From Thalassospira profundimaris (lineage in GTDB: Bacteria; Pseudomonadota; Alphaproteobacteria; Rhodospirillales; Thalassospiraceae): a DNA stretch of 64,000 bases. Shown here piece after piece: positions 3,537 through 22,109 of the stretch (positions are counted from its first letter, which is position 1; each line of letters starts with the position of its first letter). A program made the translations under genes and the position numbers. Where the stretch lies: assembly GCF_003326675.1 (NCBI RefSeq), contig NZ_JPWF01000002.1:248001-312000 (forward strand), in the 5' to 3' direction. Below the pieces are notes generated by a model, which was not told where the DNA came from, did not search any database, and was given only the letters and a program-made list of their open reading frames with translations.

Positions 3537-4198
3537 ACGGCTTTTTTGCCATCCTGCGTCGCGATTTGAGTCTTGCCCTTCGTCAAGGCGCTGATTCCGT
3601 GATGGTGGTAGCTTTCTTCATCGTAACGACAACGCTGTTTCCATTCGGTGTCGGACCCGAAGCCAATATTCTTGCGCGTATTGCATCCGGGGTGATCTGG
3701 GTTTCGGCATTGCTTGCCGCGATGCTGTCACTTGAACGGGTCTTCCAGACCGATTACGAAGACGGCACGCTTGAACTTTTGACCCTGTCCCCGGTCTCGC
3801 TTGAATTGCTGGTCCTGGGCAAGGTACTGGCACATTGGTTGACCACCGGGTTGCCGCTGATCATTGCGGCCCCGTTGATGGCCTTGATGCTGAATATGGA
3901 TCAGGACGGGTTTATCACCCTGATGGTGGCAATGTTACTGGGCACACCGGCCCTAAGCCTGATCGGGGCGATTGGAGCGGCCCTTATTCTGGGGGCGCGA
4001 CGAGGCGGCGTTCTGGTCTCGTTGCTGGTCCTGCCTCTTTACATTCCGGTTCTGATTTTCGGGGCCGGTGCGGTTGAAGCAGCCCTTTTGGGCATATCGG
4101 CAACCGCACAGTTACAGATCATGGCGGCCATTTTGCTGATTGCACTGGCAGCTACGCCCTTTGCCACTGCGAACGCAGTGCGTCAGGCAATGGAATAA
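3533..4198 (+). CDS. ccmB: Heme exporter membrane subunit CcmB
   Basis: A 221-residue membrane protein with about six hydrophobic segments, matching the usual CcmB length. It opens MNGFFAILRRDLSLALRQGA and carries the segment QTDYEDGTLELLTLSP typical of the family. It pairs with CcmA as the permease subunit of the CcmABCD complex. It overlaps ccmA by 4 bases; ccmC begins 13 bases after its stop. Confidence 0.95.
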   Translation: MNGFFAILRRDLSLALRQGADSVMVVAFFIVTTTLFPFGVGPEANILARIASGVIWVSALLAAMLSLERVFQTDYEDGTLELLTLSPVSLELLVLGKVLAHWLTTGLPLIIAAPLMALMLNMDQDGFITLMVAMLLGTPALSLIGAIGAALILGARRGGVLVSLLVLPLYIPVLIFGAGAVEAALLGISATAQLQIMAAILLIALAATPFATANAVRQAME

Positions 4199-4211
4199 CG
4201 GACAGAAGAAT

Positions 4212-5000
4212 ATGCATCGTTTTGCCAAACCAAGTGTGTTTCTGAAGCTGACCGACCCGATCCTGCCATGGCTGGCCGGGGCAACGGCGATCCTGATTGC
4301 CGCCGGGCTTTATTTCGCACTTTTTGCGTCCCCGATTGACTATCAGCAGGGCGATACCGTGCGGATCATGTATCTGCATGTGCCAGCAGCCTGGATGGGG
4401 TTGTTCTGTTATGTCGGCATGGCGATTTGTGGTGCCATGAGCCTGATCTGGAAGCATCCGCTTGCCGATATCTGCGCACGTGCCACAGCCCCGATTGGCG
4501 CAACATTTACCGCCCTTTGTCTGATCACCGGATCGCTTTGGGGAGAACCGATGTGGGGCACCTGGTGGGTGTGGGATGCGCGCCTGACCTCGATGCTGAT
4601 TCTGCTGTTCCTGTATCTTGGCTATATCGCGCTGGTGAATGCCTTTGATGATCCCGAACGCGGATCAAAGGCCGGTTCGGCACTGGCACTTGTCGGTGCA
4701 ATCAATGTCCCGATTGTCAAATTCTCGGTCGACTGGTGGAATACGCTTCACCAACCGGCTTCGATTGTCCGTATGGACGGCCCGGCGGTTGATCCCAGCA
4801 TGCAGTTACCGCTCGCGCTGATGATCCTCGGCTTTACCAGTTATTACTTTGTCGTGCTGATCCTGCGCGTCCGTCTTGAATTGAATGAACGCCGCATTCG
4901 TGCCTTGCAACTTTCGGGGATGTTTGACGAACGCCCCGATCACAAGGATGCAGGTTCACGCAACTATGAAGCGGGTCACAATATGGAGGCCAACCAATGA
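4212..5000 (+). CDS. ccmC: Heme-handling protein CcmC
   Basis: A 262-residue membrane protein with six predicted helices that binds heme and delivers it to CcmE. The tryptophan-rich motif WGTWWVWD is at about residues 115-122, and the two conserved heme-ligand histidines appear in YLHVPAAW (H56) and NTLHQPA (H180). I chose ATG 4212 because upstream in-frame codons run into ccmB and the N-terminus from 4212 matches the family. Its stop overlaps the ccmD start (ATGA at 4997). Confidence 0.95.
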   Translation: MHRFAKPSVFLKLTDPILPWLAGATAILIAAGLYFALFASPIDYQQGDTVRIMYLHVPAAWMGLFCYVGMAICGAMSLIWKHPLADICARATAPIGATFTALCLITGSLWGEPMWGTWWVWDARLTSMLILLFLYLGYIALVNAFDDPERGSKAGSALALVGAINVPIVKFSVDWWNTLHQPASIVRMDGPAVDPSMQLPLALMILGFTSYYFVVLILRVRLELNERRIRALQLSGMFDERPDHKDAGSRNYEAGHNMEANQ

Positions 5001-14952: not shown

Positions 14953-16488
14953 TCAGTCCGGGGCATAACCAAAAGCGGCTGGCGGATTTGCTGCTGTTTC
15001 GGTCCAGACGCTTTTGGGCTGCATATATTCCATCAAACCTTCCTTGCCACTGGACCGGGCATAGCCACTGGCACCGAAACCGCCAAATGGTGACATGACA
15101 TTGATCGTCTTGTAGCTGTTGATCCAGAACGTCCCGGCCCGAACATTGGCCGCCACACGATGCGCGCGGTCAACGGACTGGGTCCAAACTGCACCTGCCA
15201 GACCGAACTTGCTGTCATTAGCGATTGCGACTGCCTCGGCTTCGTCATCAAACGGGATCACCGACAGAACCGGGCCAAAGATTTCTTCGCGTGCGATATT
15301 CATATCATTCCGCACATTGCCCAAAACGGTCGGACGCAGGAAATAGCCATCCTGATAGGCATCGCCATCCGGGCGCACCCCGCCAGCAAGCAATTGCGCA
15401 CCCTCGTCCTGGCCACTTGCAACCAGTCGACGCACAGTCTGATACTGGGCCGCGTTATTGATCGGGCCAATCTGGGTTGCCGTGTCCATCGGATCGCCGA
15501 CCGGAATGGTGTTTGCACCGGTCACCAGCATATCAAGGAAGCGATCCACCACATTGCGCTGAACCAGAAGACGCGAACCGGCAACACAGCTTTGTCCTGC
15601 ACCACTGAATATCGCAGCCTGCGCGCCGATCACCGCACGTTTCAGATCCGCATCACCAAACACGATATTGGCCGACTTCCCGCCCAGTTCGAGAACACAG
15701 GGCACGATATTCTGTGCGGCCTGGGCGGCGATAATCGCCCCGGTACGCGGTGATCCGACAAAGACAACCTTGCGCGTGGCATCATGCGTGGTTGCCGCAA
15801 CACCGGTCGTCGCACCAAGCCCGGCCAAAACCGTAATCACACCATCGGGCAGACCGGCCTTTTTCGAAAGGACACCAAGAGCAAGTGATGTAAGCGGCGT
15901 CATCTCCGACGGTTTAAGAACCGCGGCATTGCCCGTGCAAAGTGCCGGGGCAAGCTGCCAGCCCGCCGTGAAGATTGGCGCGTTCCAAGGTGTAATTTGT
16001 GTGACCACGCCATAGGGTTCGGGACGCGTATAGTTCAAATGACTGGTCGGGACCGGAATAACGTCGCCGTGCAGTTTGTCAGCCCAGCCGGCATAATATT
16101 CAAACATCTCGGCAACTTTAAGAACCTCGACCCGGGTATCGCGGATCGGCTTGCCTGCCGTGACGGTTTCAAGAAGTGCAAGTTCTTCAAGGTGATCGCG
16201 AACCTGCTGGCCGATGCGCCACATGATCCGGCCACGTTCGGCCCCCGTCATACCCCACCAGACTTTCTGTCCTGCGACGGCGGCATCCATTGCCTGATCG
16301 ACAACATCAGCCCCGGCATCCTTGAGCGCAAGAAACGCCTTACCAGTAGCCGGATCGATCAGTTCAAACGTATCGCCATTGCCTGGCACCATCGCCCCGT
16401 TGACCCAGCTTCCGACTTCCGCGGTCCCAAAAAACGGCACCATTGCCTTGTGATAGTCACGGGCAATCAATTTGGTTTCGCTGGTCAT
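14953..16488 (-). CDS. NAD(P)-dependent aldehyde dehydrogenase
   Basis: A 511-residue ALDH-superfamily enzyme oxidising an aldehyde to an acid. The general-base glutamate is E267 in LELGGKSAN and the catalytic cysteine is C301 in GAGQSCVAGSR. NAD-binding motifs TPWNAP and KPSEMTPL are present. It resembles betaine/gamma-aminobutyraldehyde-type dehydrogenases, but the substrate is not readable. AGGAG lies 8 bases before the ATG. The ATG overlaps the stop of the upstream dehydrogenase (ATGA), so the two form an operon, read away from the LysR gene. Confidence 0.92.
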   Translation of the reverse strand: MTSETKLIARDYHKAMVPFFGTAEVGSWVNGAMVPGNGDTFELIDPATGKAFLALKDAGADVVDQAMDAAVAGQKVWWGMTGAERGRIMWRIGQQVRDHLEELALLETVTAGKPIRDTRVEVLKVAEMFEYYAGWADKLHGDVIPVPTSHLNYTRPEPYGVVTQITPWNAPIFTAGWQLAPALCTGNAAVLKPSEMTPLTSLALGVLSKKAGLPDGVITVLAGLGATTGVAATTHDATRKVVFVGSPRTGAIIAAQAAQNIVPCVLELGGKSANIVFGDADLKRAVIGAQAAIFSGAGQSCVAGSRLLVQRNVVDRFLDMLVTGANTIPVGDPMDTATQIGPINNAAQYQTVRRLVASGQDEGAQLLAGGVRPDGDAYQDGYFLRPTVLGNVRNDMNIAREEIFGPVLSVIPFDDEAEAVAIANDSKFGLAGAVWTQSVDRAHRVAANVRAGTFWINSYKTINVMSPFGGFGASGYARSSGKEGLMEYMQPKSVWTETAANPPAAFGYAPD

Positions 16489-17384
16489 GACTTGGCTCCT
16501 GCATGGGTGGGATCACATTCGGTAATTCGGTTAAAGTCGGCATCATCTGCAAGAAGATCAGAACTTTTGCCCCAAATCTGTCCGGCCAGTGCCGAAACAG
16601 GCAATGCAACGTCCTTGTCTTTTGCCAGTGCCATGGCAAGGCGCATGTCCTTGCGCATCAGGCCCATGGTAAAGCCGCTGTCAAAGGCACCATTCATCAC
16701 CCATTTGGGATAATTGACTTCGCTGATCGCACTTCGACCGGAACCGGCATTCAATGCCGAAATCAGGTTTTCGGTGGTGACGCCCGCGGCATTACCAAGC
16801 CTGACGGCCTCGCTCATTGTCAAAAGATGGGATGCGACCAGCATATTATTGACGATCTTGACCGCATGTCCGGCCCCGACCGGACCGACATGAGTGATCT
16901 TGCCGCCAAGTGACGCAAGAACCGGCATGGCACGCGCGACGTCGGCATCATCACCGCCAACCATCATGGTCAGTTGACCACTATTGGCCCCTGCCGGACC
17001 ACCGCTGACCGGTGCATCAATCAGGATATGCCCCAAACGGCGCAGGGTCGCGTCAATATCCCGGGTCACATCGGGTTCTGATGTCGTGGTGTCGATCACC
17101 AGTCGCGCATCCAGATCGCGGGCAACAAGCCCGTCATCCCCGGTCAGGACCGTTCGGACATGGTTTGCCGTTGGCAGGGACAGGATAATGGTTTTGCAAG
17201 CTTCAAACAGCTCGGGCAGGCTGGCGACAATGGTTGCACCGGCGGTTGCGGCTTCTGTTTGACGGTCAGCAGAAAGGTCGAACCCGACAACGGAAAAACC
17301 GTCCCGCAACAGGGTCCGGACCATGCCCATCCCCATATTGCCAAGACCGATGACACCAATGGTGCCGGTTTCTGGATTATTCAC
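16485..17384 (-). CDS. 3-hydroxyisobutyrate dehydrogenase-like NAD(P) oxidoreductase
   Basis: A 299-residue beta-hydroxyacid dehydrogenase. The Rossmann motif GLGNMGMG (13-20), the substrate loop DAPVSGGPAGA (123-133) and the catalytic lysine K176 in GHAVKIVNN are all present. Family members oxidise 3-hydroxyisobutyrate, tartronate semialdehyde and related acids; the exact substrate is uncertain. GTG 17384 has AGAGG 8 bases upstream and gives the normal family length; the frame is open to 17588 but the extra sequence is unlike the family. It overlaps the ALDH gene by 4 bases and faces away from the LysR gene. Confidence 0.9.
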   Translation of the reverse strand: MNNPETGTIGVIGLGNMGMGMVRTLLRDGFSVVGFDLSADRQTEAATAGATIVASLPELFEACKTIILSLPTANHVRTVLTGDDGLVARDLDARLVIDTTTSEPDVTRDIDATLRRLGHILIDAPVSGGPAGANSGQLTMMVGGDDADVARAMPVLASLGGKITHVGPVGAGHAVKIVNNMLVASHLLTMSEAVRLGNAAGVTTENLISALNAGSGRSAISEVNYPKWVMNGAFDSGFTMGLMRKDMRLAMALAKDKDVALPVSALAGQIWGKSSDLLADDADFNRITECDPTHAGAKS

Positions 17385-17541
17385 GAAAATTGCCTCTTTG
17401 GTTTCAGACAGCCGGGCGTAATCGGTGAAGACACACTTCTTCCCGTCACAGCACCAAGGCGGTCTGATGTGATTTTTTGATTTTACCATCCGACTTTCCG
17501 GTGGATATCGGGCGAACTCAAGATCAATTGGCGGAACATCT

Positions 17542-17560
17542 TGTTGCCGAAACAGCAACA
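17542..17560. promoter_or_regulatory. Probable LysR operator, copy 1 (TGTTGC-N7-GCAACA)
   Basis: TGTTGC (17542-17547) and GCAACA (17555-17560) form a 6-7-6 inverted repeat in the region between the divergent dehydrogenase operon and the LysR gene, where LysR regulators usually bind. The same arms with the same spacing recur at 18573-18591 before the DUF3100 gene. The shared motif is seen; binding by this LysR protein is inferred. Confidence 0.6.
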
Positions 17561-17630
17561 CATATGCTCTGATTAGGTGATCACCCACATACCAAGCCGG
17601 TAAGGGTCAACTTTTTGCGCAGCAGCCATC

Positions 17631-18560
17631 ATGAAGATCGACGATAAACCGCTTCGCTATTTCCTTGCCGTGTTTGAAGCCGGATCTATTCGCACGGCTG
17701 CCGAAAACCTGCGCATTGCGCCATCGGCCATCAGTCGCCAGATCGCAGCCCTTGAAGCGCATCTTGAAACTCTTCTGATGGAACGTACCAAACGCGGCAT
17801 CATCTTTACCGAAGCCGGTCATATGGTTGCCGCCCATGCCAGACGCCGGTTCGAGATGGACGAAGCATTTTCAGTCGATCTGGCCGCTGCACGCGGGGCG
17901 ATTGCCGGGAAGGTCCGCATAGCCACCGGCGAAGGGTTCGTTGTTGATCTGGTCAATCATGTTGTGCGCCCTCTGCGCGACGAGTTTCCCGATATCCGTC
18001 TTGAAATCGATGTCGCGGGAACCGAAAAGATCACCCACGGAATCCTGCGCGATGACTACGATATGGGGCTTGTTTTCAATCCGCCGCGCAATCCCGATCT
18101 TGAACTTCTGGCCGAGGATCATGCACCGCTTTGCGCCCTTGTCCCGCCGGGATTTGATCTTGCCGACAAGGAAAGCTGTACGCTTTCAGATACACTGAAT
18201 TATCCGGCTGCCTTGCTGAACCCGCCTTTTGGTGTGGCCAAACTTCTGGCCAATGTCGATCAGGGAAATCGTGTTGCCCATGATGCCTTTCTGACCGCCG
18301 ATTCGATCAATGTTGCCATCCATTTCGTTCTTTCGGGGGGCGGGATCACGTACCTTCCGGCTTTTGCTGTATCGCGGCAATTGCGCCGTGGCGAGGTCGT
18401 TGCAGTCCCAATGACCGACCCGTTCCTTGCCCGGGTTCCATCGCATCTTCTGGTGCGTAAGGGCCGACCAAAAACCGCCGCCGTTCGGGCGGTTACCGGC
18501 ATGATCCGCGACCGGATGGAGGCATTCGGTTCCGCCTGGTATCCCGAAGAACATTCCTAG
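17631..18560 (+). CDS. LysR-family transcriptional regulator
   Basis: A 309-residue regulator with an N-terminal winged helix-turn-helix (LRYFLAVFEAGSIRTAAENL then RIAPSAISRQIAALE, about 6-40) and a C-terminal substrate-binding domain (about 90-300). It is divergent from the dehydrogenase/ALDH operon and in line with the DUF3100-M20-DJ-1 genes, so it sits in the middle of what looks like its own regulon. Two identical-arm inverted repeats support this. The co-inducer is unknown. The ATG has only a weak ribosome site, as is common for self-repressed LysR genes. Confidence 0.93.
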   Translation: MKIDDKPLRYFLAVFEAGSIRTAAENLRIAPSAISRQIAALEAHLETLLMERTKRGIIFTEAGHMVAAHARRRFEMDEAFSVDLAAARGAIAGKVRIATGEGFVVDLVNHVVRPLRDEFPDIRLEIDVAGTEKITHGILRDDYDMGLVFNPPRNPDLELLAEDHAPLCALVPPGFDLADKESCTLSDTLNYPAALLNPPFGVAKLLANVDQGNRVAHDAFLTADSINVAIHFVLSGGGITYLPAFAVSRQLRRGEVVAVPMTDPFLARVPSHLLVRKGRPKTAAVRAVTGMIRDRMEAFGSAWYPEEHS

Positions 18561-18572
18561 CATCCTTCAACC

Positions 18573-18591
18573 TGTTGCCGTTCCGGCAACA
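18573..18591. promoter_or_regulatory. Probable LysR operator, copy 2 (TGTTGC-N7-GCAACA)
   Basis: TGTTGC (18573-18578) and GCAACA (18586-18591) repeat the arms and 7-base spacing of the site at 17542. Here the spacer CGTTCCG extends the symmetry to a 9-bp stem (18572-18580 with 18584-18592) around TTC, so it could also act as a hairpin just after the LysR stop. There is no U-tract. It lies about 190 bases before the DUF3100 start. Confidence 0.55.
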
Positions 18592-18783
18592 GAAGCATCC
18601 CAAAATGGCACTTGCCCAGCCCCCTTCGAGTTTTCATTGTCGGACAAAATTCCGGGTTCAGAAAATGGCAAAAATGTGAAATTTGCCGGCATCCGGATAC
18701 CACAGGGATGACGCAACCTGTCTGGCTTCTTCGGGACTCCGGACGAGATTGTGTCGAACACGCCACGTCGAGGAGACTTGAAA

Positions 18784-19614
18784 ATGAATGCGCTTCGGGG
18801 ACAGTTGGAGCTTTGGCGGCTTCATCTTGCCGTGATCATTCTCGGTGCTATTGCCGAATTGATCGGTATCCAGAAAATTTCATTTGGCATCGGCGCCATT
18901 TTGCTGCTGCCGTTGCTTTATGCCTTTGTTATGGCCGCACTGATGAACCCGAATGTTATGCCGAAACTCGGCAAATTCATTCGCGAAAAAGAAGTCAAAG
19001 CTGCCTCCCCGCTGATCGTTATCGCGATCATGCCCTTCATCGCAAAGTTCGGCACCACCATCGGCCCGGCAATTGAAACCATTATCGAAGCCGGTCCGGC
19101 CCTGTTGCTTCAGGAACTGGGTAACCTTGGCACCATCGTTCTGGCCTTCCCGCTTGCGGTTTGGGGCCTGAAAATGGGCCGCGAGGCAATTGGCGCGACC
19201 TTCTCGATTGCGCGTGAACCCAACCTTGCGATCATTGCAGACCGCTATACGCTTAAAAGCCCGGAAGGCACAGGTGTTATGGGCGTTTATGTGATCGGCA
19301 CCCTGTTTGGTACCTTCATCTTTGCCATTCTGGCATCCCTGTTTGCCAGCAGCGGCCTTTTTGACCCGCGTGCCCTTGCCATGGCTTGTGGTATCGGCAG
19401 TGGCTCGATGATGGCGGCTTGCACCGGTGCATTGACCGAAGTTGTTCCGAACATGAAGGACGAAATCCTTGCACTGGCCGGGGCCAGCAATCTTCTGACC
19501 TATGCGACCGGCCTTTATGCGGGCCTGTTCATCGCACTTCCGATTGTCGAAAAACTTTATAACGCGACCGCTGGCAAAAATGATCTCGCCACCGCGAACA
19601 AGAAGGAGGCTTGA
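18784..19614 (+). CDS. DUF3100 integral membrane protein, putative transporter subunit
   Basis: A 276-residue membrane protein with about eight hydrophobic segments, recognised as DUF3100 by its repeated glycine-rich helices and the stretch ACGIGSGSMMAACTGALTEV. No transport function is established for the family; the fold and context suggest solute transport. ATG 18784 has AGGAG 8 bases upstream. The next gene, another membrane protein, begins 3 bases after its stop with its own AGGAGG, and an amidohydrolase follows. Together these look like an uptake and hydrolysis cassette controlled by the upstream LysR gene. Confidence 0.75.
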   Translation: MNALRGQLELWRLHLAVIILGAIAELIGIQKISFGIGAILLLPLLYAFVMAALMNPNVMPKLGKFIREKEVKAASPLIVIAIMPFIAKFGTTIGPAIETIIEAGPALLLQELGNLGTIVLAFPLAVWGLKMGREAIGATFSIAREPNLAIIADRYTLKSPEGTGVMGVYVIGTLFGTFIFAILASLFASSGLFDPRALAMACGIGSGSMMAACTGALTEVVPNMKDEILALAGASNLLTYATGLYAGLFIALPIVEKLYNATAGKNDLATANKKEA

Positions 19615-19616
19615 TC

Positions 19617-20105
19617 ATGTCTGATAGCGCAGTTGCAATGGAACGTACCCGTCCGAACATCAATCTGACTGATCACGCCGTCACCCTGATCATTGTGTGC
19701 CTTGTCGGTCTGGTCATGAACACTGTTGGTCCGGCCATTCCGCTGGCAGATGGTTTTGTCGGCATGGTCGTGATTTATCTGATCTCGATGGTCGGTTTAA
19801 TCCTGACCCGTTTTGCGCCTTTCTATCTTCCGAGTGTGGCCTGGATTTCGCTGGTCGGGATCGTTGCGACCCTGCCCTGGACACCGGGCTCGGAATGGAT
19901 CGTTGCACAGGCCAAATCGGTTAACTTCCTGGCGCTTGCAACCCCGGCCCTTGCCTATGCCGGTTTTGCCATCGCCAAGAAAGAAATCGAAGTCGCCAAG
20001 CATTCCGGCTGGAAACTGGCACTGGTTGCCTGCCTTGTATTCCTTGGCACCTATGCCGGTTCTGTTCTGGTTGCCGAATTGATCCTGCGTCTTCAGGGTT
20101 CTTGA
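19617..20105 (+). CDS. Small membrane protein, putative partner of DUF3100
   Basis: A 162-residue protein with about five hydrophobic segments (near 22-40, 46-66, 70-88, 100-120 and 130-155). I do not recognise a family. It begins 3 bases after the DUF3100 stop with AGGAGG at 19604-19609, so the two are certainly co-translated, and a two-subunit membrane complex is the natural reading. A TTG at 19611 is an alternative start. A strong stem-loop follows the stop. Confidence 0.65.
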   Translation: MSDSAVAMERTRPNINLTDHAVTLIIVCLVGLVMNTVGPAIPLADGFVGMVVIYLISMVGLILTRFAPFYLPSVAWISLVGIVATLPWTPGSEWIVAQAKSVNFLALATPALAYAGFAIAKKEIEVAKHSGWKLALVACLVFLGTYAGSVLVAELILRLQGS

Positions 20106-20116
20106 TCATCTACCCC

Positions 20117-20146
20117 ATAAACGGGGACAATTGCGTCCCCGTTTAT
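20117..20146 (+). other. 12-bp perfect stem-loop after the membrane gene pair
   Basis: ATAAACGGGGAC (20117-20128) and GTCCCCGTTTAT (20135-20146) pair perfectly around AATTGC. No clean U-tract follows. It may be an attenuating or RNA-stabilising hairpin that lowers expression of the downstream amidohydrolase relative to the membrane genes, or a weak terminator. Confidence 0.6.
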
Positions 20147-20203
20147 CCTGCGGGTTCTTGTTTGCAAACTGACAAACCCGCCCTTTCTGACACGCTACAG
20201 AGT

Positions 20204-21397
20204 ATGCAGATGACTGTCTCCAATTGCTCCCCTCATCCTCGTGCCACCGAACTTGCTGATGAGTTTAAATCCTGGCGTCATCATTTGCATACTCATCCCG
20301 AAACCGCGTTTGAGGAAAAGCTGACCAGTGCTTTTCTTGCGGAAAAGCTTGCATCCTTTGGCCTTGAAGTTTCAACCGGCATGGCCAAAACCGGGGTGAT
20401 CGCAACCCTGAAAGGCAACAAGGGCAACGGCAAGCGGATCGGGCTGCGCGCCGATATGGACGCGCTTGATATCCATGAACTGACCAATCTGCCCTATGCA
20501 TCCAAGCATCCGGGCAAGATGCATGCCTGTGGCCATGACGGCCATATGACGATGCTGCTTGGTGCTGCAAAAATCCTGTCCGAAGCCCCCGATTTTGCCG
20601 GAACCGTTGAATTCATTTTCCAGCCTGCCGAAGAAAACGAAGGCGGCGGTCGTGAAATGGTCAATGAGGGGCTGTTTGAGAGCCATCCGGTCGATGCCAT
20701 TTTTGGCATGCATAACTGGCCCGGACGTGATGTTGGCACCATGGCGATGAAAGCCGGTCCGATGATGGCCAGCTATGACATCTTTGAAATCAATATTGAC
20801 GGCAAAGGCTGTCACGCAGCCATGCCCCACCTCGGCCGCGATCCGATCACAGCCACCGGGCAGGTCTTGCTTGCCCTTCAGACCATTGCCGCACGCAACG
20901 TCAATCCGCTTGAAAGTGCGGTAATTTCGCCGACCCAGATTTTCGGCGGTGACACCTGGAACGTCATTCCTGACACCGCAACCATTCGCGGCACAGTTCG
21001 GACATTCTCCCCCGCTGTTCAGGATCTGGTCGAAGAACGCCTGAAGGCCGTTGCCAAATCAACCGCAGAGGCTTTTGGCTGCTCGGCCCGTGTGATGTAT
21101 CAGCGCCGCTATCCGGCAACAATCAACAGCGAAGCCGAAACCGCCATTGCACGGGCTGCTGCCATCCGGGTCGTTGGCACCGACAAGGTTGATCCCAATC
21201 CGGAATCATCGATGGCCAGCGAAGATTTCGCCTTCATGCTGAATGAAAAGCCGGGAAGCTATGTACTGCTTGGCAATGGTCCGACCGATGGCAACTGTTT
21301 GCTGCATAACGCGGCCTATGACTTTAACGATGAAGCCATCCCCTATGGCGTGACCTATTGGATCACGCTGGTAGATGAATATCTTGGTGCACGTTAA
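20204..21397 (+). CDS. M20-family amidohydrolase (hippurate hydrolase-like)
   Basis: A 397-residue metal-dependent hydrolase of the M20D group, which cleaves N-acyl amino acids, hippurate, IAA-amino acids and similar amides. Metal-binding blocks are RADMDALDI, ACGHDGHMTM (C109, H111, H114), PAEENEGGG and MHNWPG, with SMASEDF near the C-terminus. A dimerisation/lid domain lies between. Start choice between ATG 20204 and ATG 20210 is uncertain as neither has a strong ribosome site. Placed after a membrane gene pair, it probably hydrolyses the imported compound; the acyl or amino part may then feed the dehydrogenases of the divergent operon. Confidence 0.9.
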   Translation: MQMTVSNCSPHPRATELADEFKSWRHHLHTHPETAFEEKLTSAFLAEKLASFGLEVSTGMAKTGVIATLKGNKGNGKRIGLRADMDALDIHELTNLPYASKHPGKMHACGHDGHMTMLLGAAKILSEAPDFAGTVEFIFQPAEENEGGGREMVNEGLFESHPVDAIFGMHNWPGRDVGTMAMKAGPMMASYDIFEINIDGKGCHAAMPHLGRDPITATGQVLLALQTIAARNVNPLESAVISPTQIFGGDTWNVIPDTATIRGTVRTFSPAVQDLVEERLKAVAKSTAEAFGCSARVMYQRRYPATINSEAETAIARAAAIRVVGTDKVDPNPESSMASEDFAFMLNEKPGSYVLLGNGPTDGNCLLHNAAYDFNDEAIPYGVTYWITLVDEYLGAR

Positions 21398-21485
21398 GCA
21401 AATCAGCCATATACAAGTTTTTCCTTGTGCAGGTTTCAATCTGCGCGTTCAATAGCCGCCCTTTTTCAACGGCGGTTAGACGGAC

Positions 21486-22109
21486 ATGAAGATTGCAATC
21501 GTGACACTCGACGGTTTCAACGAGATCGACAGCTTTGTTGCCCTGTCGATCCTGAACCGTGCCAAGGCCGATGGCGTGACCGCTGCGATCACAGCACCCG
21601 GTGAAACCGTAACATCGATGAATGGTGTCACCGTTTCGGTGCAAAAGCCGATGTCCTTTGTCCGCGAAGCTGATGCCGTATTGCTGGGAAGTGGCATCCA
21701 TACCCGTACTCATATTGATGACACGGCAATCATGCGCGAACTTGCCCTTGATCCGTCACGCCAGTTGATTGGCGCGCAATGTTCCGGGGTTTTGTTCCTG
21801 TATCGTTTGGGTCTTTTGCCAGCAACCATCACGACCGACACCAAAACCCGCCCGCTGCTTGCGCGGACCGATACCGTGGTTGAAGATCGCCCGCTTGTTG
21901 CGCAGGGCAATATCGTCACCAGTGGCGGCTGCCTGTCTTCAAGCTATCTGGCCGGATGGTTTCTGACCAAGGCGGTTGGTATCGACAAGGCAATGTCGGT
22001 TCTTGAAACCGTTGCCCCGGTCGGTCAGCGATCACAATTTGGTAAACAGGCGCGCGAAATCATTGGCAAACAGCTTGATGTTCCGGCCAAACGGCCACTT
22101 TATTGCTAG
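21486..22109 (+). CDS. DJ-1/PfpI family protein
   Basis: A 207-residue protein with the class I glutamine amidotransferase-like fold. The nucleophile elbow is GAQCSGVLFL (C99), and the conserved glutamate is probably E13 in FNEIDSF. Family members include isonitrile hydratases, glyoxalases and regulator domains; here the domain stands alone without a helix-turn-helix. It lies 88 bases after the M20 gene and may belong to the same transcript, but a function in the pathway is inference only. Confidence 0.85.
   Translation: MKIAIVTLDGFNEIDSFVALSILNRAKADGVTAAITAPGETVTSMNGVTVSVQKPMSFVREADAVLLGSGIHTRTHIDDTAIMRELALDPSRQLIGAQCSGVLFLYRLGLLPATITTDTKTRPLLARTDTVVEDRPLVAQGNIVTSGGCLSSSYLAGWFLTKAVGIDKAMSVLETVAPVGQRSQFGKQAREIIGKQLDVPAKRPLYC

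Follow-up and report, generated by a model that had tools for sequence, protein, structure and literature searches.

The DNA analysed here is a stretch of 64,000 nucleotides from Thalassospira profundimaris (contig NZ_JPWF01000002.1), called the window below. It possesses a set of genes around a membrane protein of the DUF3100 family. We explain this set best as a LysR-controlled locus for the uptake and breakdown of an N-acyl beta-hydroxy amino acid, composed of a two-subunit elevator-type importer, an M20 amidohydrolase and dehydrogenases, and hold this explanation with about as much belief as doubt. In the proposed mechanism, DUF3100 as core and the adjacent small membrane protein (MP) as auxiliary subunit would form an elevator-type transporter of the re-entrant-helix-reentrant kind, importing a beta-hydroxy amino acid which bears an N-acyl group, with N-acyl-L-serine as the likeliest case. 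M20 would strip the acyl group. An enzyme of the HIBADH family would then oxidise the 3-hydroxyl of the freed serine, or of a close analogue, to an unstable amino-semialdehyde, and an aldehyde dehydrogenase (ALDH) would oxidise this product, or aminoacetaldehyde after CO2 loss, towards aminomalonate or glycine. L-serine ammonia-lyase (SdaA) would replace the HIBADH/ALDH pair in related loci, and LysR would act on both operons through the palindrome TGTTGC-N7-GCAACA. Conservation of the set, fusion of the membrane pair, the common palindrome and the serine-lyase swap are evident from sequence comparison, and the transporter fold is predicted from models; from these we infer the direction of import, the substrate, each enzyme step and LysR binding.

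Conservation of the gene set

A sequence-only reading had described the region as a candidate LysR regulon, and its gene composition and order were confirmed for all seven genes, with ALDH and HIBADH leftward and LysR, DUF3100, MP, M20 and a DJ-1 protein rightward. Of 29 genomes of Thalassospira, 19 possess DUF3100. In wider genome draws, which overlap in part, it was present in 17 of 398 genomes of the phylum (4 of the 17 from the genus), 7 of 385 of the class (2 from the genus and 1 weak match below cut-off) and in 12 of 399 and 15 of 341 genomes of two more draws, the latter including 1 weak match. Of the two weak matches, G480 and G1388 (E about 6e-4), that in G480 overlaps an amino-acid-permease-like frame and was taken as chance. 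M20 at 75% identity or more occurred in exactly the 19 genus genomes which bear DUF3100; the unit is gained or lost as a whole. Among the ten genus genomes devoid of DUF3100, five gave no M20 match and the other five none above 50%.

Neighbouring genes were surveyed within 8 kb of DUF3100 in 125 loci outside the genus, reduced to 123 by removal of two duplicates (L108 and L146, with DUF3100 DNA identical to L044 and L041). The loci came from the genome draws, from plasmid records and, for named genomes, from the best 80 of at least 580 confirmed stretches, a part of the sample which is biased to close relatives. Same-genus loci (L033-L035 and L049-L063, 18 loci; again L070-L077) were left out of the counts. 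MP was found in 120 loci, M20 in 98, LysR in 85, HIBADH in 78, ALDH in 76, and a VOC-type protein and SdaA in 9 each. HIBADH and ALDH occurred together in 76 loci. HIBADH stands without ALDH in L160 and L174, the latter with the gene 8 kb off on the opposite strand. M20 was accompanied by HIBADH and ALDH in 61 loci, by serine lyase in 8, by both in 1 and by neither in 28. The sequence-only reading had suggested such a survey, and the neighbours proved not to be random; M20, LysR, HIBADH/ALDH and the small partner are conserved, and the gene arrangement is more than chance.

Sets of DUF3100, MP and M20 devoid of dehydrogenases were found in Fusobacterium, Leuconostoc, Bartonella, Haladaptatus pallidirubidus and four enterobacterial plasmids. 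The plasmids (L067, L156, L162 and L163), some of them conjugative, carry in three of the four cases a regulator annotated TdcA, divergent or nearby. The Salmonella plasmid L162 has a gene annotated as enterotoxin A family (4011-4775) at a distance of about 3 kb from its DUF3100 operon. In nine loci a VOC protein of Glyoxalase_3 type is situated close to the dehydrogenase operon, for example in L118 (15207-16079), L123, L128, L130, L152 and L181. L158 and L161 have, next to DUF3100-MP, two M20 genes and an acyltransferase resembling BioF/Kbl which is below all cut-offs, and L161 has a cupin and an acetyltransferase in addition; these loci possibly represent a different branch of the DUF3100-MP system. 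The DJ-1/PfpI protein, earlier listed as a member of the set, was dropped from it, as it is near 12 of the 18 other genus loci and near none of the 123 outside the genus.

The membrane pair and its predicted fold

MP was adjacent to or fused with DUF3100 in all 120 loci which possess it. Of the three others, L101 and L125 are at contig ends, and L159 has an annotated protein of fitting size immediately downstream. A script found both parts in one open frame in 44 loci; L096 turned out to be two frames, leaving 43. Among 122 loci, about 43 are thus fused and 79 split into core and small partner, like LrgAB/Lys_export members. The two-gene membrane system read from the window is therefore real and often forms one fused protein. 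In alignments the window MP falls on the C-terminal portion of natural fusions, with 42% identity to L118. It gave no match to any Pfam or NCBIfam model at E 0.01, in line with its earlier description as unrecognised.

Structure prediction of DUF3100 with its partner, another step suggested by the first reading, was carried out on the natural fusion L118 (431 residues). The AlphaFold model from 56 aligned sequences had pLDDT 87.1 and pTM 0.86. Window DUF3100 alone, modelled from a separate alignment of 29 sequences, gave a less certain model (pLDDT 76.5). Both predicted models show two helix pairs, each broken by a short loop, around one long helix (in L118 numbering 132-152 and 193-218 around 158-188), and the helix pairs are read as predicted re-entrant hairpins. 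In structural realignment of the Foldseek list, CitS was on top (Z 15.8 over 293 residues, rmsd 3.8, residues 4-431), a value little above the about 14 quoted by the tool for unrelated, mostly helical models. NapA, NHA2, SbtA and ASBT followed with Z about 12-13. By itself the top Z value is modest; it counts for more that the leading rows agree on one fold class. For DUF3100 alone, OadB (Z 9.6) and CitS (Z 9.4) stood well ahead of the next group at 5.7. Besides the small distance of the top Z value from the level of unrelated models, two points count against the fold assignment: the first helix pair of the L118 model is at pLDDT 70-80, and Foldseek itself gave no match for this model at E 0.001 or better.

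Sequence searches of the PDB gave no relative of DUF3100 and two chance-level matches for MP (E 0.13-0.14). The window pair had no match in Pfam to LrgB (PF04172), LrgA (PF03788) or the CitS family (PF03390) at E 0.01, nor did the L118 fusion and the L078 MP match LrgB, LrgA, Lys_export or PF03390 at E 1. Comparison of profiles gave a weak likeness of DUF3100 to LrgB (P 0.0012, probability 19%) when the widest DUF3100 alignment was used, the two profiles being collinear for most of their length; two narrower alignments gave P 0.14-0.16, and comparison pairs 0.16 and 0.064. No paper in the literature searched names DUF3100, PF11299 or IPR021450. DUF3100 and MP very probably constitute one two-subunit transporter, and DUF3100 appears to be one of the two halves of an importer.

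A common palindrome upstream of both operons

Alignment of the intergenic regions across the genus revealed one palindrome, TGTTGC-N7-GCAACA, ahead of both operons. Each of the 18 other genus loci has exact copies of it at both places (19 of 19 with the window). The extended form TGTTGCC-N5-RGCAACA is exact in the window at 17542-17560 and 18573-18591, and these are its only exact places in the whole genome. Allowing one mismatch, the window has 4 strand matches against 0.05 expected, and the genome has three further places, with three strand matches for the reversed control. In related genomes, TGTTGC-N7-GCAACA is exact in 8 of 14 and absent in 6, and some have extra sites. Four extra-site regions inspected in these genomes held no homologue of the gene set; G247, G419, G158 and G982 have others.

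Outside the genus, palindromes with at most one mismatch were counted within 300 bases upstream of each gene, with 59 permuted-arm palindromes as control. The palindrome preceded DUF3100 in 30 of 122 loci (control mean 0.25, maximum 4) and HIBADH in 16 of 78 (control mean 0.02, maximum 1), counts which are not independent events as the loci are akin to one another. Upstream of ALDH (0/75), M20 (1/90) and SdaA (0/9) it was practically absent. It stood before DUF3100 or HIBADH in 39 of the 123 loci, 38 of them with LysR. Among exact palindromes with six-base arms and gaps of 3 to 13, TGTTGC-N7-GCAACA was the commonest upstream of DUF3100. Among the loci which possess it are those of Actinobacteria (L078, L083) and some of the serine-lyase form (L045, L047, L145, L157, L174-L176). 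Since it occurs in both locus forms, the dehydrogenase form and the serine-lyase form appear to be tied to one regulator type.

Sites of LysR-type regulators follow the spacing rule T-N11-A, and the palindrome before both operons fits this spacing. The sequence evidence for joint control of the two operons is strong; LysR would be the protein which binds, and the genes of the set are probably switched on together. The earlier proposal of a LysR regulon is thus borne out to the extent that one LysR-type palindrome precedes both arms.

Between the membrane pair and M20, 18 of 19 genus members have a hairpin with a stem of at least 9 pairs (G-T allowed), the sequence of which varies among them, and z is -2.9 or lower in 16 of 19. 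As no T run stands behind it in the window, RNA processing or unequal stability is as likely as termination. The hairpin may set the ratio of transporter to enzyme.

The serine-lyase swap and the candidate substrate

SdaA was found near 9 of the 123 loci, and 8 of these lack the HIBADH/ALDH pair. Marinomonas has both forms, one locus with the pair (L137) and one with the lyase (L145). The Tistrella loci (L174-L176; displayed for L174 and L176) have the order LysR, DUF3100, MP, serine lyase, M20, and a Tistrella plasmid record was also the best plasmid match (79% identity). Both loci tested reached the serine lyase model TIGR00720. The frequency of the lyase was examined in 32 DUF3100 genomes outside the genus, two weak matches being excluded. 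L-serine ammonia-lyase was present in 29 of them with 33 copies in total, and it was beside DUF3100 in 6 of the 32 (four genera), against about 0.12 expected from copies x 16.7 kb / genome size. In 5 of these 6 genomes it is the sole copy.

Other loci also possess enzymes of kinds which act on hydroxy-amino acids or their products. L065 has a threonine dehydrogenase and a glycine C-acetyltransferase, both over cut-offs. L150 has a threonine/serine-type dehydratase, a RidA-family protein and a DoeB-like acylase, of which dehydratase and acylase are below cut-offs. A KBL-like neighbour in L192, whose neighbours read like biotin genes, and Rid-like matches 5-9 kb from DUF3100 were not counted as evidence. 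The nearest solved relatives of the window M20 are YxeP, an ILR1-like enzyme and N-acyl-glutamine aminoacylase, and M20 enzymes near it act on N-acyl amino acids. D-phenylserine dehydrogenase, a distant relative of HIBADH, is described as oxidising a beta-hydroxy amino acid to a product which loses CO2 (PMC2963168). A published precedent for the order of steps is the ong pathway, in which import is described as followed by deacetylation and deamination, with a RidA protein alongside (PMC9537276). The literature searched on N-acyl-serine breakdown contained no such pathway.

The serine-lyase swap, the hydroxy-amino-acid enzymes, the M20 relatives and the published precedents together point to N-acyl-L-serine or a close analogue. 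The class of N-acyl beta-hydroxy amino acids is moderately supported as substrate. Because the HIBADH/ALDH pair is exchanged with L-serine ammonia-lyase, it is suggested that the pair acts on the released hydroxy-amino acid, not necessarily on the acyl half. The order of import, amide hydrolysis and oxidation proposed in the sequence-only reading fits and can be sharpened to an N-acyl-serine-like substrate, while the oxidation need not be of the acyl half.

Alternative explanations

Several observations weigh against the N-acyl-serine explanation. HIBADH and ALDH with no detected M20 were found in 14 of the 123 loci, and 11 have none of M20, the pair and SdaA. In the archaeal, Bartonella and Leuconostoc loci M20 is more distant, so the substrate may vary. 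Both dehydrogenases of the window are below the NCBIfam equivalog cut-offs: ALDH reaches 498 bits with its nearest model, betaine-aldehyde dehydrogenase TIGR01804 (cut-off 668.6), and HIBADH 209 bits with 3-hydroxyisobutyrate dehydrogenase TIGR01692 (cut-off 291.6). The palindrome is absent (more than one mismatch) in 84 of the 123 loci, 47 of them with LysR. The SdaA family was picked after the loci had been seen, and its link covers 9 loci, three from one genus. Among these, L181 has both SdaA and the pair, L160 has a divergent SdaA with another gene between it and M20, and L157 has a transposase between SdaA and DUF3100.

It is unlikely that the same transporter and aminoacylase release an amino acid which is not serine-like, with HIBADH and ALDH serving another product and the serine and threonine genes as chance neighbours in some lineages. 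The 28 loci with M20 alone would agree with it, as would the breadth of the TIGR01891 subfamily and the variety of N-acyl amino acids on which the closest solved enzymes act; however, the excess of SdaA beside DUF3100, the one palindrome which several SdaA-type loci share with HIBADH-type loci ahead of DUF3100 and the other hydroxy-amino-acid enzymes all speak against it. It seems improbable, too, that the locus serves for a hydroxyacyl amide of an amino acid, such as pantothenate, which M20 splits for oxidation of the hydroxyacyl half by HIBADH/ALDH and separate use of the amino half. For pantothenase an acyl-enzyme mechanism is described, which is ill-suited to the metal-dependent M20, and pantothenate was rejected as main substrate and retained only within this alternative. 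SdaA and the HIBADH/ALDH pair are mostly mutually exclusive, a better fit to alternatives for one product. On the other side, HIBADH relatives act on hydroxy acids, the pair stands without SdaA in 75 loci and together with it in L181, and a source of 2023 describes the bacterial pantothenase gene as still unknown (PMC10393543).

The remaining alternative, that the membrane pair transports serine, threonine or a similar hydroxy-amino acid in free form, in or out, with M20 as optional partner, has a small chance of being right. It would account for the 14 loci with HIBADH and ALDH and no detected M20, two of which (L078, L083) have the palindrome. PftAB, a relative by layout, is described as a facilitator for import and export (PMC5626966), and LysO-type families are named lysine exporters (PMC8396727). 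Against this stand M20 near 98 of the 123 loci and the DUF3100-MP-M20 sets devoid of dehydrogenases in the three bacterial genera named above, Haladaptatus pallidirubidus and several enterobacterial plasmids. In two genomes of a Kushneria-like genus, moreover, M20 (52-53% identity) lies 20 and 34 kb off, one copy with an internal stop.

If the N-acyl-serine explanation is true, it gives a first function to DUF3100, a membrane family of bacteria and archaea, and to its model-less partner MP, and adds one more family to the re-entrant-helix-reentrant fold-type. N-acyl amino acids would then be nutrients with a dedicated uptake system. More broadly, and tentatively, DUF3100 and its partner may be a further two-subunit family of this fold-type for N-acyl beta-hydroxy amino acids, forming with M20 an unrecognised N-acyl-serine (or -threonine) route in bacteria and archaea; many proteobacteria would then turn serine towards glycine by an NAD-linked 3-dehydrogenase and ALDH, not by deamination. 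The candidate operator and the enzyme swap open a way to direct tests.

Features of the window

The features are collected in Table 1. Gene starts were set by ribosome sites in the sequence and by homologue lengths. The ATG of DUF3100 is preceded by GAGGAG and that of MP by AAGGAGG, the latter start being 2 bases past the DUF3100 stop; M20 also starts with ATG. HIBADH and ALDH overlap by 4 bases. The likely start of HIBADH is the GTG at 17384. Its frame stays open for 68 codons upstream (17385-17588), a conserved stretch which contains the palindrome, and this longer frame is intact in some genus members and broken in others.

Table 1. Genes and sequence elements of the DUF3100 locus, with positions in the window
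Feature	Position	Strand	Evidence and remarks
ALDH	14953-16488	-	Pfam Aldedh, 549 bits
HIBADH-family dehydrogenase	16485-17384	-	PF03446 and PF14833 (NAD_binding_2 and NAD_binding_11); GTG start
Palindrome TGTTGCCGAAACAGCAACA	17542-17560		Candidate LysR operator of the HIBADH-ALDH operon and the LysR gene
LysR-type regulator	17631-18560	+	PF00126 and PF03466
Palindrome TGTTGCCGTTCCGGCAACA	18573-18591		Candidate LysR operator of the DUF3100 operon
DUF3100 membrane protein, proposed core subunit	18784-19614	+	PF11299, 327 bits (over the cut-off of 27)
Small membrane protein (MP), proposed auxiliary subunit	19617-20105	+	Adjacency to or fusion with DUF3100
G+C-rich hairpin, stem 12, loop 6	20117-20146	+	z -4.6 / -5.4; between the membrane pair and M20
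M20 amidohydrolase (aminoacylase type)	20204-21397	+	Peptidase_M20; TIGR01891, 376 bits (over the cut-off of 153.75)
DJ-1/PfpI protein	21486-22109	+	DJ-1_PfpI; not counted as a member of the system

Comparison with known systems

In a survey of CPA/AT transporters, the re-entrant-helix-reentrant fold-type is described as a single transmembrane helix which separates two re-entrant helices. It is given three families (PSE, LrgAB and Lys_export), two of which occur as core and small partner or as fusion, and its 2021 description states that no crystal structure was known at that time (PMC8396727). LrgAB/PftAB and LysAB are described with a core of two re-entrant hairpins around a single helix and a small helical partner, split or fused (PMC8396727, PMC5626966), a layout which the models predict for DUF3100 and MP as well. 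Unlike them, DUF3100-MP has no Pfam match to LrgB, LrgA or Lys_export, its profile comparison with LrgB is weak, and it is joined to an aminoacylase and dehydrogenases. CitS, of the 2-hydroxycarboxylate transporters, and OadB are the nearest solved structures to the DUF3100-MP models, with likeness in fold only. CitS is described with five helices between its re-entrant helices (PMC8396727), against one in the DUF3100 models. Neither CitS nor OadB has a sequence match to DUF3100, and the substrate differs.

The AbgT-AbgA-AbgB system takes up and cleaves p-aminobenzoyl-glutamate. As is proposed for the DUF3100 locus, it pairs a transporter with an M20 enzyme which hydrolyses an N-acyl amino acid, but the transporter is of an unrelated family and dehydrogenases are absent. 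The ong pathway for GlcNAc1A, as described, differs from the DUF3100 locus in its SSS-family transporter, its D-aminoacylase-type deacetylase and its regulator; like our proposal, it comprises import, deacetylation of an N-acetyl hydroxy-amino acid and then deamination with RidA (PMC9537276).

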